From a virus: 29,373 nt of DNA. The notes under the pieces are model-generated. The model was not told where the DNA came from. It ran no database searches and was given only the letters and a program-made list of their open reading frames with translations. The stretch covers positions 1-29,373 of the IMG/VR virus record IMGVR_UViG_3300046167_000302; one strand, given 5' to 3'. Below are positions 2,703-11,031 of the stretch, piece by piece (position 1 is the stretch's first letter; the number at the start of each line of letters is the position of its first letter). Both the position numbers and the translations under genes were made by a program.

Positions 2703-3111
2703 TTTAGCAAGTACAGACGAATTTGCAATAGCTGAAGATGACGGTGCTGGTGGTTATGTTTCTAAAAAGATAACAGGCGCAGAATTAAAAGGCGGTCTTA
2801 CAGAGATTGAATTTAATACGCAATCTGCTACCTATACTTTGGTATTGTCAGACCAAAATAAAATGGTCGAAATAAATAACGCATCTGCTAATGAAATCAT
2901 AATACCTTTAAATAGCGCTGTCGCTTTTCCAATAGGCACACAAATTTTAGTGGCGCAACTTGGAACAGGTCAAACAAGCATAGGCAAGTCTGTAGGCGTT
3001 AATTTATACGCAGAAGGTAATAAGCTTAAAATTGTTGGGCAATATGGCATTGCAACATTAATTAAGAAAAGTACAGACCTTTGGTATGTAGCAGGAAATC
3101 TTGAAGCATAA
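2659..3111 (+). CDS. Beta-rich virion protein, putative tail-tip or fibre-associated
   Basis: This 150-residue protein opens with MAEIRISQLTAKAS, a start common in flavobacterial phage proteins next to adhesins. From about residue 60 it has a compact beta-strand domain (YTLVLSDQNKMVEINNASAN, then FPIGTQILVAQLGTGQ, closing with LWYVAGNLEA). This layout recurs in phage fibre and baseplate proteins, where the domain often sits before a receptor-binding module. It is followed without a gap by a LamG adhesin (TAATG overlap), which supports a role at the host-contact end of the virion. The precise function is not shown by the sequence. Confidence 0.55.
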   Translation: MAEIRISQLTAKASNLASTDEFAIAEDDGAGGYVSKKITGAELKGGLTEIEFNTQSATYTLVLSDQNKMVEINNASANEIIIPLNSAVAFPIGTQILVAQLGTGQTSIGKSVGVNLYAEGNKLKIVGQYGIATLIKKSTDLWYVAGNLEA

Positions 3112-8697: not shown

Positions 8698-8750
8698 TAG
8701 AAATAATTTACTGCGCAGTTATAACTTGGATATATGGAGGACTTGATTAA
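8688..8750 (+). CDS. 20-residue hydrophobic peptide, possible coupling frame
   Basis: ATG 8688 overlaps the end of the previous gene by ten bases, and the TAA at 8748 lies inside the next gene. The peptide MRLIEIIYCAVITWIYGGLD is hydrophobic. It is too short for firm support; it may be a mini-protein or may only carry ribosomes to the start at 8734. Confidence 0.25.
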   Translation: MRLIEIIYCAVITWIYGGLD

Positions 8751-9102
8751 ACAGGTGATAGAAAAAGACGGACTTGCCAGTAAAGAACGTTTTTCACCTT
8801 TAATAAACAAACGTATGTATATGTATACGATAATGCGTAAACACGGAATGAACTTTCAAAAGATAGGTTCGTTTTTTAATAGGAATCACGCTACGATCAT
8901 ACACGGCATAAAACGTTACAACGACTTAACAAAGTCTAAAGACGCAATGCTAAAAGTAGACACAGAAGAATACGAACAAATATTCGGTGAAATACCTGTA
9001 CCAAAAGAACGTTACAATTTAGAAAAAGACGTAAGAAAAGCTACTACGATCACAGATTTAAACATAATAAAAAGAAGGTTAAACAATAATATGTACGAAT
9101 GA
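8734..9102 (+). CDS. DnaA domain-IV-like DNA-binding protein
   Basis: In this 122-residue protein, residues about 18-72 match the C-terminal DNA-binding domain of DnaA: an arginine/lysine-rich first helix (NKRMYMYTIMRKHG), then IGSFFNRNHATIIHGIKRY, equivalent to the DnaA signature around RDHTTVLHA. The AAA+ domain is absent. DnaA domain IV binds 9-base DnaA boxes at origins, so this protein may mark the phage origin or redirect host initiation. A consensus box, TTATTCACA, occurs in the intergenic gap at 15160. It overlaps the nuclease gene by four bases. Confidence 0.8.
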   Translation: MEDLIKQVIEKDGLASKERFSPLINKRMYMYTIMRKHGMNFQKIGSFFNRNHATIIHGIKRYNDLTKSKDAMLKVDTEEYEQIFGEIPVPKERYNLEKDVRKATTITDLNIIKRRLNNNMYE

Positions 9103-9464
9103 CACGACAAGAAAAACACGGAATAAGAGACATTTACTTTAGTCAATGGATTCGTAGAAGTCTACCAGATAGCAGCACAGGCTTTAGCGTTAGCGACATA
9201 GACTTTATGCTATGGAATTGGAAGACAAAAAGCTTCGCACTTTTAGAAATTAAATGCAGAAATGTAGAACCAAGTGTAGGACAATACAAGATGATCAAAA
9301 ACGTTCACAGGTGGATTAAAAAAGGTTTAGACGATAACTGGAAGTATTACGGTTATAATCTAATAACCTTTGAAGGTGACACTTTCGAAAATGGCAGAGT
9401 ATATTTAAACAAAAAAGAAATAACAGAAAAAGAACTTATAAAATTTTTGAGTTTAGAATTTTAA
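9099..9464 (+). CDS. PD-(D/E)XK-type nuclease candidate
   Basis: A 121-residue protein with the core of the restriction-endonuclease-like fold: VSDIDFMLWNWKTKSFALLEIKCR, where Asp of SDID and the E-x-K of LEIKC would form the metal site, and a Gln (SVGQYKM) in the following helix. The family includes Holliday-junction resolvases, VRR-NUC and repair nucleases. Its position between a DnaA-like protein and a DnaD-like protein suggests a replication or recombination role. Which substrate it cuts is not visible. Confidence 0.65.
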   Translation: MTRQEKHGIRDIYFSQWIRRSLPDSSTGFSVSDIDFMLWNWKTKSFALLEIKCRNVEPSVGQYKMIKNVHRWIKKGLDDNWKYYGYNLITFEGDTFENGRVYLNKKEITEKELIKFLSLEF

Positions 9465-9473
9465 TTATATTTG
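9446..9473 (+). promoter_or_regulatory. Bacteroidota-type promoter P2
   Basis: TATATTTG at 9466-9473 is a full TAnnTTTG -7 box. TTTG at 9446-9449 is a possible -33 box, spaced 16 bases away, which is slightly short. Transcription should start near 9479, just before the GGTAGGA stem of the leader RNA. Confidence 0.7.
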
Positions 9474-9478
9474 TAATG

Positions 9479-9555
9479 TTGGTAGGACAATCGAATTTTT
9501 TAAGTGTTGCGTTAGTAAGTGTTCCTACCCACCGAAAGCGCGGCACTTTTTTTTT
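9479..9555 (+). ncRNA. Structured leader or small RNA with interleaved stems
   Basis: A roughly 77-base transcript is predicted from promoter P2. GGTAGGA (9481-9487) pairs with TCCTACC (9523-9529). AAGTGTTGCG (9502-9511) pairs with CGCGGCACTT (9539-9548), using two G-U pairs. Nine T follow (9547-9555). The two stems interleave, so they either form a pseudoknot or compete. A second copy of TAAGTGTT (9516-9523) can also pair with the same 3' strand. The T-run makes the second stem terminator-like. This fits a small RNA with its own terminator, or an attenuator ahead of the gene at 9566. I know no family match. Confidence 0.5.
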
Positions 9556-9565
9556 ACAATAATTT

Positions 9566-10138
9566 ATGGCAGACAATAAGAAAAGCTTTTTACTTTACTG
9601 CGACTTACTGCATACGGTAAAGAAGTTAAACGATGAACAAGCTGGTAAGTTGTTTAAGCACGTTTTAGAGTACGTAAACGACTTAAACCCAGAAACCGAA
9701 GACATAATAACAGACTTATGTTTTGAACCTATAAAACAAAGTCTAAAGCGTGACTTACGTAAATACGAATCTACTTGTAAAAAAAGAAGTGAAGCTGGTA
9801 AAAAAGGAATGGCTAAACGTTGGGCAAAAGATAACAAAGAGAACAAGTGTTATAAACCTATAACAAACATAACTGATAGAGATAGTGATAAAGATAATGA
9901 TAAAGAAAAAGATATATATAGGCGCTTTGCGCATTTGTCTATGACTGTTTCAGAGTTTAACAAGTTAGAAGCTGACTACGAAAAGAAGACAATTGATTCG
10001 TGTTTAGATAGCATAGAGAACTTTAAAAACAATAAGAAATACAAATCGTTATATTTGACTTGCAAGAATTGGTTGAAGAAGGAACAAACAAAACACGAAC
10101 TAAAAACACTTAATAAATTTAAAGCACCGTGGGAATAG
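9566..10138 (+). CDS. Replication protein, DUF6291 N-terminus with DnaD-like C-terminus
   Basis: This is a 190-residue protein. Residues 1-70 (KKSFLLYCDLLHTVKKLNDE, AGKLFKHVLEYVNDLNPET, EPIKQSLKRDLRKYE) match my memory of DUF6291, a domain at the N-terminus of phage replication proteins. A basic linker with KKRSEAGKKGMAKRWAK follows. Residues about 125-175 (MTVSEFNKLEADYEKKTIDS, then YKSLYLTCKNWLKKE) have the DnaD/replisome-organiser C-terminal pattern. Together these suggest an origin-binding or helicase-loading factor. The helicase-like gene follows with a ten-base overlap. It sits behind the structured leader at 9479-9555. Confidence 0.7.
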   Translation: MADNKKSFLLYCDLLHTVKKLNDEQAGKLFKHVLEYVNDLNPETEDIITDLCFEPIKQSLKRDLRKYESTCKKRSEAGKKGMAKRWAKDNKENKCYKPITNITDRDSDKDNDKEKDIYRRFAHLSMTVSEFNKLEADYEKKTIDSCLDSIENFKNNKKYKSLYLTCKNWLKKEQTKHELKTLNKFKAPWE

Positions 10139-11031
10139 AAGGTTATAAGGTAACAGAAACAGGCGACATAATAGACAAAATATTTAAGCATAGAGATAAC
10201 TACAATCAAAAAGGTAAGTATTTAGGTTGGAAAGGTTTAGACGAATTCTACAGTATGCAATTAGGTAACTGCACAGATTGGACAGGTTTCCCAATGTCGG
10301 GAAAAACACAAGTGCTTATGGAATGCTTATTAAACACAAGTAAGTTTTATGGTTGGAAACATTTAGTTTACTTTCCAGACGTAGGCAACAACGTAGAAAT
10401 AGTTGCAGACTTAATACACAAGCTTACAGGTAAAAGCTTCAATCCGTTAGAAAACAATGTGATCAAAGACAGAGAAATCACAAATAGTTTAGATTGGATA
10501 TTTGAACACTTTCATATACTAACAAAGAAAGACGTAAAAGCTAAAATGACACCGTTCCAATTTTATGACTATGCAGTAGAACTTAAACAAAAACACGGAT
10601 TACAAACTGCAAGTATAGATAGTTGGAAAGACTTAAGCCACCCATACCACGACTATGGAGGTTACGCACAATATTTAGAAGTAGTGCTACCGTATAGAAA
10701 TCAAATAGCTGAAGACAACGAACTACACTTACACACGATTATACACCCAAAGCTTACAGAAAAGATAAACGGTAAACGTAGTGTTCCTTCACCGTATGAC
10801 TTAAAAGGTGGTTCTGAATGGTTTAATAGTGGCAAGTGTATGATAACTGTACACCGTGAAGATTTAAGCTACAACCAAGCAACAATAAACTTTAACAAGA
10901 TTAAGCCACGTTCTGCTGGTAAGATAGGTCAATTAATTTTGTGGTTCGATAAAGAAAAGTTTTTATATTATGAGCAAGACAATCCAGCACCAAATGTTTA
11001 CATAAGAAAATTTGCACAAGAAAATGAATAG
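10129..11031 (+). CDS. DnaB-like helicase/RecA-fold ATPase
   Basis: A 300-residue protein starting at GTG inside the end of the previous gene. Residues about 53-61 form a Walker A loop (GFPMSGKTQ). A Walker B-like strand follows around TASIDSWKDL, and later Gly-rich and Arg-containing segments (YDLKGGSEWFNSGKC) resemble the DnaB/twinkle C-terminal ATPase domain. It has no primase domain, so either the host supplies primase or the protein works with host DnaG. As a RecA-fold motor next to a DnaD-like protein, replicative helicase is the most likely role. Confidence 0.75.
   Translation: MGIEGYKVTETGDIIDKIFKHRDNYNQKGKYLGWKGLDEFYSMQLGNCTDWTGFPMSGKTQVLMECLLNTSKFYGWKHLVYFPDVGNNVEIVADLIHKLTGKSFNPLENNVIKDREITNSLDWIFEHFHILTKKDVKAKMTPFQFYDYAVELKQKHGLQTASIDSWKDLSHPYHDYGGYAQYLEVVLPYRNQIAEDNELHLHTIIHPKLTEKINGKRSVPSPYDLKGGSEWFNSGKCMITVHREDLSYNQATINFNKIKPRSAGKIGQLILWFDKEKFLYYEQDNPAPNVYIRKFAQENE

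Follow-up and report, generated by a model that had tools for sequence, protein, structure and literature searches.

Related leader RNAs

In the rep-leader attenuators of the plasmids pT181 and pIP501/pAMbeta1, an untranslated leader carries an intrinsic terminator shortly before the rep gene, and RNA loop contacts decide termination. The CI RNA of satellite phage P4 and the C4-type immunity RNAs are short leader RNAs of phage replication operons that control premature termination via internal complementarity. The put RNA of HK022 is a structured RNA found just after an early phage promoter; it controls termination, but as an antiterminator that is itself no terminator.

A leader of comparable position is found in a 29,373-base stretch of viral DNA, the whole of which is termed here the window. 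The phage is of the marine Flavobacteria type. As in pT181 and pIP501/pAMbeta1, a leader and a predicted terminator lie just before a replication gene. The plasmid trigger, however, is antisense RNA made from the complementary strand, and none was identified for the phage leader, whose architecture, with a pseudoknot placed in the terminator loop, is also unlike that of the plasmids. The P4 CI and C4 RNAs differ in that the phage leader shows no sign of trans action or processing, and the Rfam C4 covariance model has no match in the window or in the leader families tested. The difference from put is that the phage leader ends in a predicted terminator.

From one promoter of the Salmonella prophage Gifsy-1, IsrK is formed both as a short terminated RNA and as a readthrough mRNA, and the short form activates the long transcript in trans (PMC4825925). 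Short terminated and readthrough forms are similarly proposed for the phage leader, but the genes that it leads are replication genes, unlike those of IsrK. There is also a likeness to the type III toxin-antitoxin RNAs (ToxI/CptI), as a pseudoknot RNA and a terminator are situated between a promoter and a downstream gene; the phage element is nevertheless a single unit with no tandem repeats, and the downstream protein, DUF6291, is not a known toxin. The phi29 packaging RNA, also small and of phage origin, has two loops that are complementary to each other, but the present element is a replication-operon leader and no intermolecular contacts are indicated.

No description of such a leader was found in a literature search. 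Rfam 15, searched at gathering and at permissive thresholds, gives no family match in the window (best E 0.47, 16 bits where 43 are needed), and none of the Rfam families matches the other leader families tested. By its putative function the element would be of the leader-attenuator kind, although it fits no family model and the known triggers are not seen.

The element and its position

The features of the locus are as follows.

9447-9473, + strand, Bacteroidota-type promoter read from the sequence: TTG at 9447-9449, a 16-base spacer and TATATTTG at 9466-9473
9478-9555, + strand, predicted leader RNA of ~75-78 nt, beginning a few bases past the -7 box and ending with the U-run
9481-9487, + strand, 5' strand of the pseudoknot helix (PK), GGTAGGA; covaries with 9523-9529
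9488-9501, + strand, linker CAATCGAATTTTTT, rich in A and U; in family A, AATC is invariant and the length varies in the alignment, not by multiples of 3
9502-9511, + strand, 5' strand of the terminator stem P2, AAGTGTTGCG; both sides changed in 5 of 10 pairs
9514-9517, + strand, AGTA strand of the internal loop; invariant in 32 sequences
9519-9521, + strand, 5' strand of P3, GTG; double changes in all 4 P3 pairs
9523-9529, + strand, 3' strand of PK, TCCTACC, inside the P3 loop; covariation
9530-9532, + strand, 3' strand of P3, CAC; covariation
9534-9536, + strand, GAA strand of the internal loop; invariant
9539-9548, + strand, 3' strand of P2, CGCGGCACTT; covariation
9547-9555, + strand, U9 tract; with P2, an intrinsic-terminator-like end
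9566-10138, + strand, DUF6291 gene, first in the operon; Pfam PF19808 (E 5.6e-26), PHROG replisome organizer (2e-6) and primosomal protein (8e-6)
10129-11031, + strand, helicase-like ATPase gene, second in the operon; PHROG DNA primase/helicase (4e-13)

A preliminary description had proposed a short RNA with interleaved stems, and all of its parts are located at 9466-9566 of the window sequence. Both stems are present, GGTAGGA (9481-9487) with TCCTACC (9523-9529) and AAGTGTTGCG (9502-9511) with CGCGGCACTT (9539-9548), and the T9 end (9547-9555), the host-type promoter upstream (9466-9473) and the replication gene downstream (ATG 9566) are in place as had been stated. The promoter box TATATTTG fits the consensus TAnnTTTG, and this box has the same place in nearly all homologues. 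In the window, the promoter (9447-9473) overlaps the stop codon of the upstream open reading frame. P2 (9502-9511/9539-9548) consists of 10 bp including two G-U pairs, is given as 10-12 bp, and is followed by U9, so that a stable stem stands directly before a U-run, as in intrinsic terminators. The U-run ends 10 bases upstream of the ATG of the DUF6291 gene at 9566.

Two features had been missed. One is the third helix, P3 (9519-9521/9530-9532), which encloses the 3' strand of PK; a fourth P3 pair, A9518/C9533, is unformed in the window and formed in many homologues. The other is the invariant AGTA/GAA internal loop between P2 and P3, which from its AGUA/GAA consensus we take to be a probable bulged-G (sarcin-ricin/loop E) motif. 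The repeat TAAGTGTT (9501-9508 and 9516-9523), suggested earlier as a competitor for the same 3' strand, is present, but a conserved competing hairpin or switch finds no support, as many homologues are without the second copy and yet keep every helix. No extra copies of the element were found elsewhere in the 29,373-base window.

The combination of PK, P2 and P3 in the window is not due to chance. Among 20,000 dinucleotide shuffles in which the T-run was kept, 369 gave any PK-P2-P3 element and 0 scored as well. A pseudoknot-free fold of the 78 nt is unremarkable (z -1.5) and gives P2 and a weak 5' hairpin; for this reason, the case rests on the interleaved topology together with covariation.

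Homologues and covariation

In relatives of the downstream protein, the element stands immediately 5' of the gene. A pattern of the conserved core found 96 stretches, which together with other relatives represent 53 distinct RNAs (family A). Covariation was scored for the three helices in an alignment of 32 distinct homologues. Compensatory changes, which had been put forward as the check on the two stems, are found in both of these and also in P3. Paired cells amount to 93.2% overall (PK 93.8%, P2 93.4%, P3 91.4%), and changes on both sides occur in 12 of the 21 pairs. There are 92 double-change cells, compared with 29.7+-4.6 after shuffling and 3-10 when partners are slid by 1-3 columns; the covariation score is 0.430, compared with 0.188 shuffled and at most 0.105 slid. 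RNAalifold recovers P2 and P3 unaided. The PK count is conservative, as rows L001, L102 and L117 are misregistered for this helix in the alignment.

The PK pair types are GGTAGGA/TCCTACC, GGTCGGA/TCCGACC, GCTGGGA/TCCCAGC, GGTGGGA/TCCCACC, GGCGGGA/TCCCGCC and TTGCGG/CCGCAA. This covariation, and the recurrence in other phages where the sequence is unrelated, lend strong support to the proposal of a pseudoknotted RNA with a promoter and a terminator of its own.

Insertions and deletions in the linker and P3 loop of the homologues are not multiples of 3, and the leader region is therefore not coding. A leader peptide was considered, as the window has a 28-codon open reading frame and phi19:3 a similar frame, and was rejected: linker indels of relatives break the frame and there is no conserved start.

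Among the homologues listed, which were retrieved by a pattern that did not demand a T-run, all but L102 and L117 keep one next to P2. In these two family A leaders (L102:3290-3370 and L117:2156-2230), the helices are kept, the T-run is lost and a DUF6378 gene lies downstream. Translational use or decay of the terminator are possible explanations.

The same architecture in other phages

A blastn search of phage records with the RNA gave chance matches only, and isolates were therefore located through the protein. In the Cellulophaga phages phi19:3 and phi13:2, a TACATTTG box is followed by CTCTCACAA, which pairs with TTGTGAGAG inside the terminator loop ACCGCTAAA/TTTTAGCGGT; a T-run and the DUF6291 start codon come next. 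A scan for the whole arrangement, from the promoter box through PK and P2 with P3 inside it to the U-run and start codon, is also positive in Flavobacterium phage 11b, Olleya phage Harreka_1, elemoA and tooticki6-1. The element is thus present in the cultured phages phi19:3, 11b and Harreka_1, and it is recognisable by topology after sequence similarity is gone. A second element of phi19:3 precedes a YopX gene. Distant DUF6291 relatives add many more families. In most of these a 5' hairpin, P1, presents the 5' strand of PK in its loop, and the contact is thus a kissing loop. The operons led in these other Bacteroidota phages are replication or early operons. Across families, the start codon follows the U-run by ~10-30 nt.

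Elements at -28 or below occur at 97 of 2,075-2,090 promoter-like sites in all viral loci, many being mutually related (61 distinct helix combinations, 33 PK helices), against 5, 1, 1, 1 and 3 in five shuffled viral sets; the energy threshold and P3 rule of the scan were fixed after family A had been seen, so that a fair assessment has to use the counts from outside family A. Addition of Erf-anchored loci, picked independently of DUF6291, raises the distinct PK helices to 40. Where the gap upstream of DUF6291 is at least 60 bases, the strict scan finds an element in 82 of 97 distinct regions; where it is below 60 bases, in 5 of 18. Covariation in family B is given as helix lists without counts, because the MAFFT alignment misregisters the helices. 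Bacteroidota host DNA (0.75 Mb) has 708 promoter-like sites; an element accompanies 4 of them, and these four look incidental.

L231 and L267 have two elements each with differing PK sequences, as self-pairing of each leader would predict.

Genes around the leader

The small protein encoded at 8734-9102, just 5' of the leader, consists of a DnaA C-terminal DNA-binding domain alone; similar genes carry a DnaA annotation in phi19:3 and Harreka_1. Between this gene and the leader is a short, uncharacterised open reading frame (9099-9464) found in only 4 viral loci, which indicates that upstream genes are exchanged while the leader stays.

Most carriers have DUF6291 as the first gene led. Its place is taken by DUF6378-ThyA-MazG in L088, L119, L128, L138, L240 and L263, whereas L265 and L267 have a helicase and L231 and tooticki6-1 an HNH endonuclease. 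As the first gene varies in this way, the element belongs to the operon head. In L240, L263 and L265, DUF6291 is further down the same gene row, with the element upstream at the head of the operon. L088, L119, L128, L138, L240 and L263 have a DUF6378-ThyA-MazG-nuclease cassette between the leader and the replication genes; the leader thus keeps first place and genes are inserted behind it. HNH endonuclease genes of the MEVWKNVIGYEEIYQVSNLGRIKRV type have their own kissing-loop leader (L231:3938-4030, L186:97-190), which perhaps moves with the gene.

DUF6291 is found in 3 of 395 Bacteroidota genomes sampled, and a scan of the surrounding stretches found no leader beside these three bacterial matches. 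The family A pattern gave four chance matches in bacterial genomes, all inside unrelated sequence. From these scans, the element looks confined to phages.

Proposed function and alternatives

The three helices, their position, the T-run and the recurrence of the architecture are observed in sequence and covariation. From these, a termination/readthrough switch appears to be the best-supported function: we infer that P2 and U9 terminate transcription, that readthrough expresses the operon and that the kissing or PK contact sets readthrough. The element, as the 5' leader of a replication operon, would then be an attenuator, a conditional intrinsic terminator organised around a pseudoknot. We assign this reading a probability of roughly 0.58, and the element probably decides how much of the operon is read. 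Promoter box, element, U-run and ATG follow one another as in leader attenuators, with an untranslated leader and a terminator before the start codon. Since the start codon lies ~10-30 nt past the U-run, there is little room for another promoter, and polymerases that reach the operon would have to pass the terminator. According to one study (PMC6847099), Flavobacteria initiate translation without Shine-Dalgarno sequences, and on that account the short AU-rich gap can suffice for initiation.

In the proposed mechanism, transcription would begin just 5' of the 5' strand of PK. As the RNA emerges, P3 would form and its loop would be captured by this strand or, in other families, by the loop of the P1 hairpin to give a kissing complex. 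P2 would close beneath over the U-run and most polymerases would stop, with a compact ~75-nt RNA as the product; transcripts not ended there would run into the replication operon 10 nt on. Readthrough might be set by whether the PK or kissing contact forms, under the influence of polymerase kinetics, of the terminated RNA or of a protein from phage or host. Both PK strands are transcribed ahead of the 3' side of P2; the contact can therefore set P2 closure, and could help or hinder termination. An attenuator accounts for the joint occurrence of promoter, knot, terminator and gene.

Against an attenuator is that L102 and L117 keep the helices without the T-run. P2 is already a strong stem by itself, so that termination might not require PK. 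Inspection of families A and B by eye gave no conserved anti-terminator pairing; a candidate AAGG/CCUU anti-terminator in family B was rejected, as it is seen in some members and lost in others.

A fold closed at its ends would equally favour a stable small RNA, which can coexist with an attenuator. Taken as the whole explanation, the terminated RNA of ~75 nt would be the product, acting in trans on RNAs or a protein, and readthrough mere leakage. We consider this unlikely, even with both RNA ends in helices, a promoter and T-run of its own, and more than one element with different loops in phi19:3, L231 and L267. Across families, the element lies 10-30 nt 5' of the first replication or early gene, as a leader would; topology aside, helix and loop sequences are wholly different between phages, and the rest of the window has no more near-matches to the 12-base segment around the 5' strand than expected by chance.

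Copy-number or superinfection control is a very doubtful further reading. Here the P3 loop of the terminated RNA would kiss, in trans, the 5' strand of leaders still being transcribed and alter their folding and termination; replication-gene expression would fall as genomes accumulate, and the diverging PK sequences would be specificity groups, which is equally doubtful. Such control is consistent with the exposure of two complementary segments within one RNA, with the 40 distinct PK helices that show compensated changes, and with the two leaders per contig with differing PK sequences in L231 and L267; there are also plasmid and satellite-phage precedents. However, PK evolves no faster than P2 or P3 in family A, and intramolecular pairing should win.

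A metabolite riboswitch, with the PK core as aptamer and P2 as expression platform, is highly improbable: AATC, AGTA and GAAAGCG are invariant in family A and nucleotide-metabolism genes (DUF6378, ThyA, MazG) occur in several led operons, but families B, elemoA, tooticki and phi19:3 keep the topology and not the invariant nucleotides, a shared ligand pocket would retain its sequence, and no Rfam riboswitch matches. A ligand pocket common to the families was rejected, as it is not kept across them. P2 and the U-run do resemble a normal terminator, but an ordinary constitutive or leaky terminator or insulator that does no more than lower expression, PK being a stabiliser and regulation absent, has as little to commend it, since PK, P3 and elsewhere P1 are maintained over large divergence, beyond the needs of a plain terminator.

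If the element is an attenuator as proposed, it would add a structural class of attenuators, one whose terminator loop is bound by the 5' end of the same transcript. The timing of early and replication genes in Bacteroidota phages is little known, and the element would be a concrete RNA device at the operon head. It is also a possible marker for replication operons in viral metagenomes. A much broader proposal appears improbable at present: that of an undescribed, widespread superfamily of kissing-loop/PK terminators that is the standard control of Bacteroidota phage replication operons, with loop pairs diverging through compensated changes into many specificities and the terminated leader RNA sensing genome number or a rival phage in trans to tune readthrough.

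Variant leaders

Several leaders depart from the common form. On the reverse strand of L122, near 82-170, the 5' PK strand GCTGGGA and the 3' strand TCCCACC are from different family A types and the helix is shortened; this looks like recent recombination across the leader. Family C leaders (L250, L252-L254, L257 and L260) have the core CGTGAGTA...GAAAGCG in common with family A, together with an extra hairpin, TCTATGGAAACATAGA, and a promoter that is farther away. In L072 and L073, upstream of position 3001, an additional 5' strand, GGTTTCGCAG, matches by complementarity a segment that follows P3. This extra stem covaries (AGAGTT/AACTCT to AGAGAT/ATCTCT), which suggests that the leader in these two loci may be a double pseudoknot.
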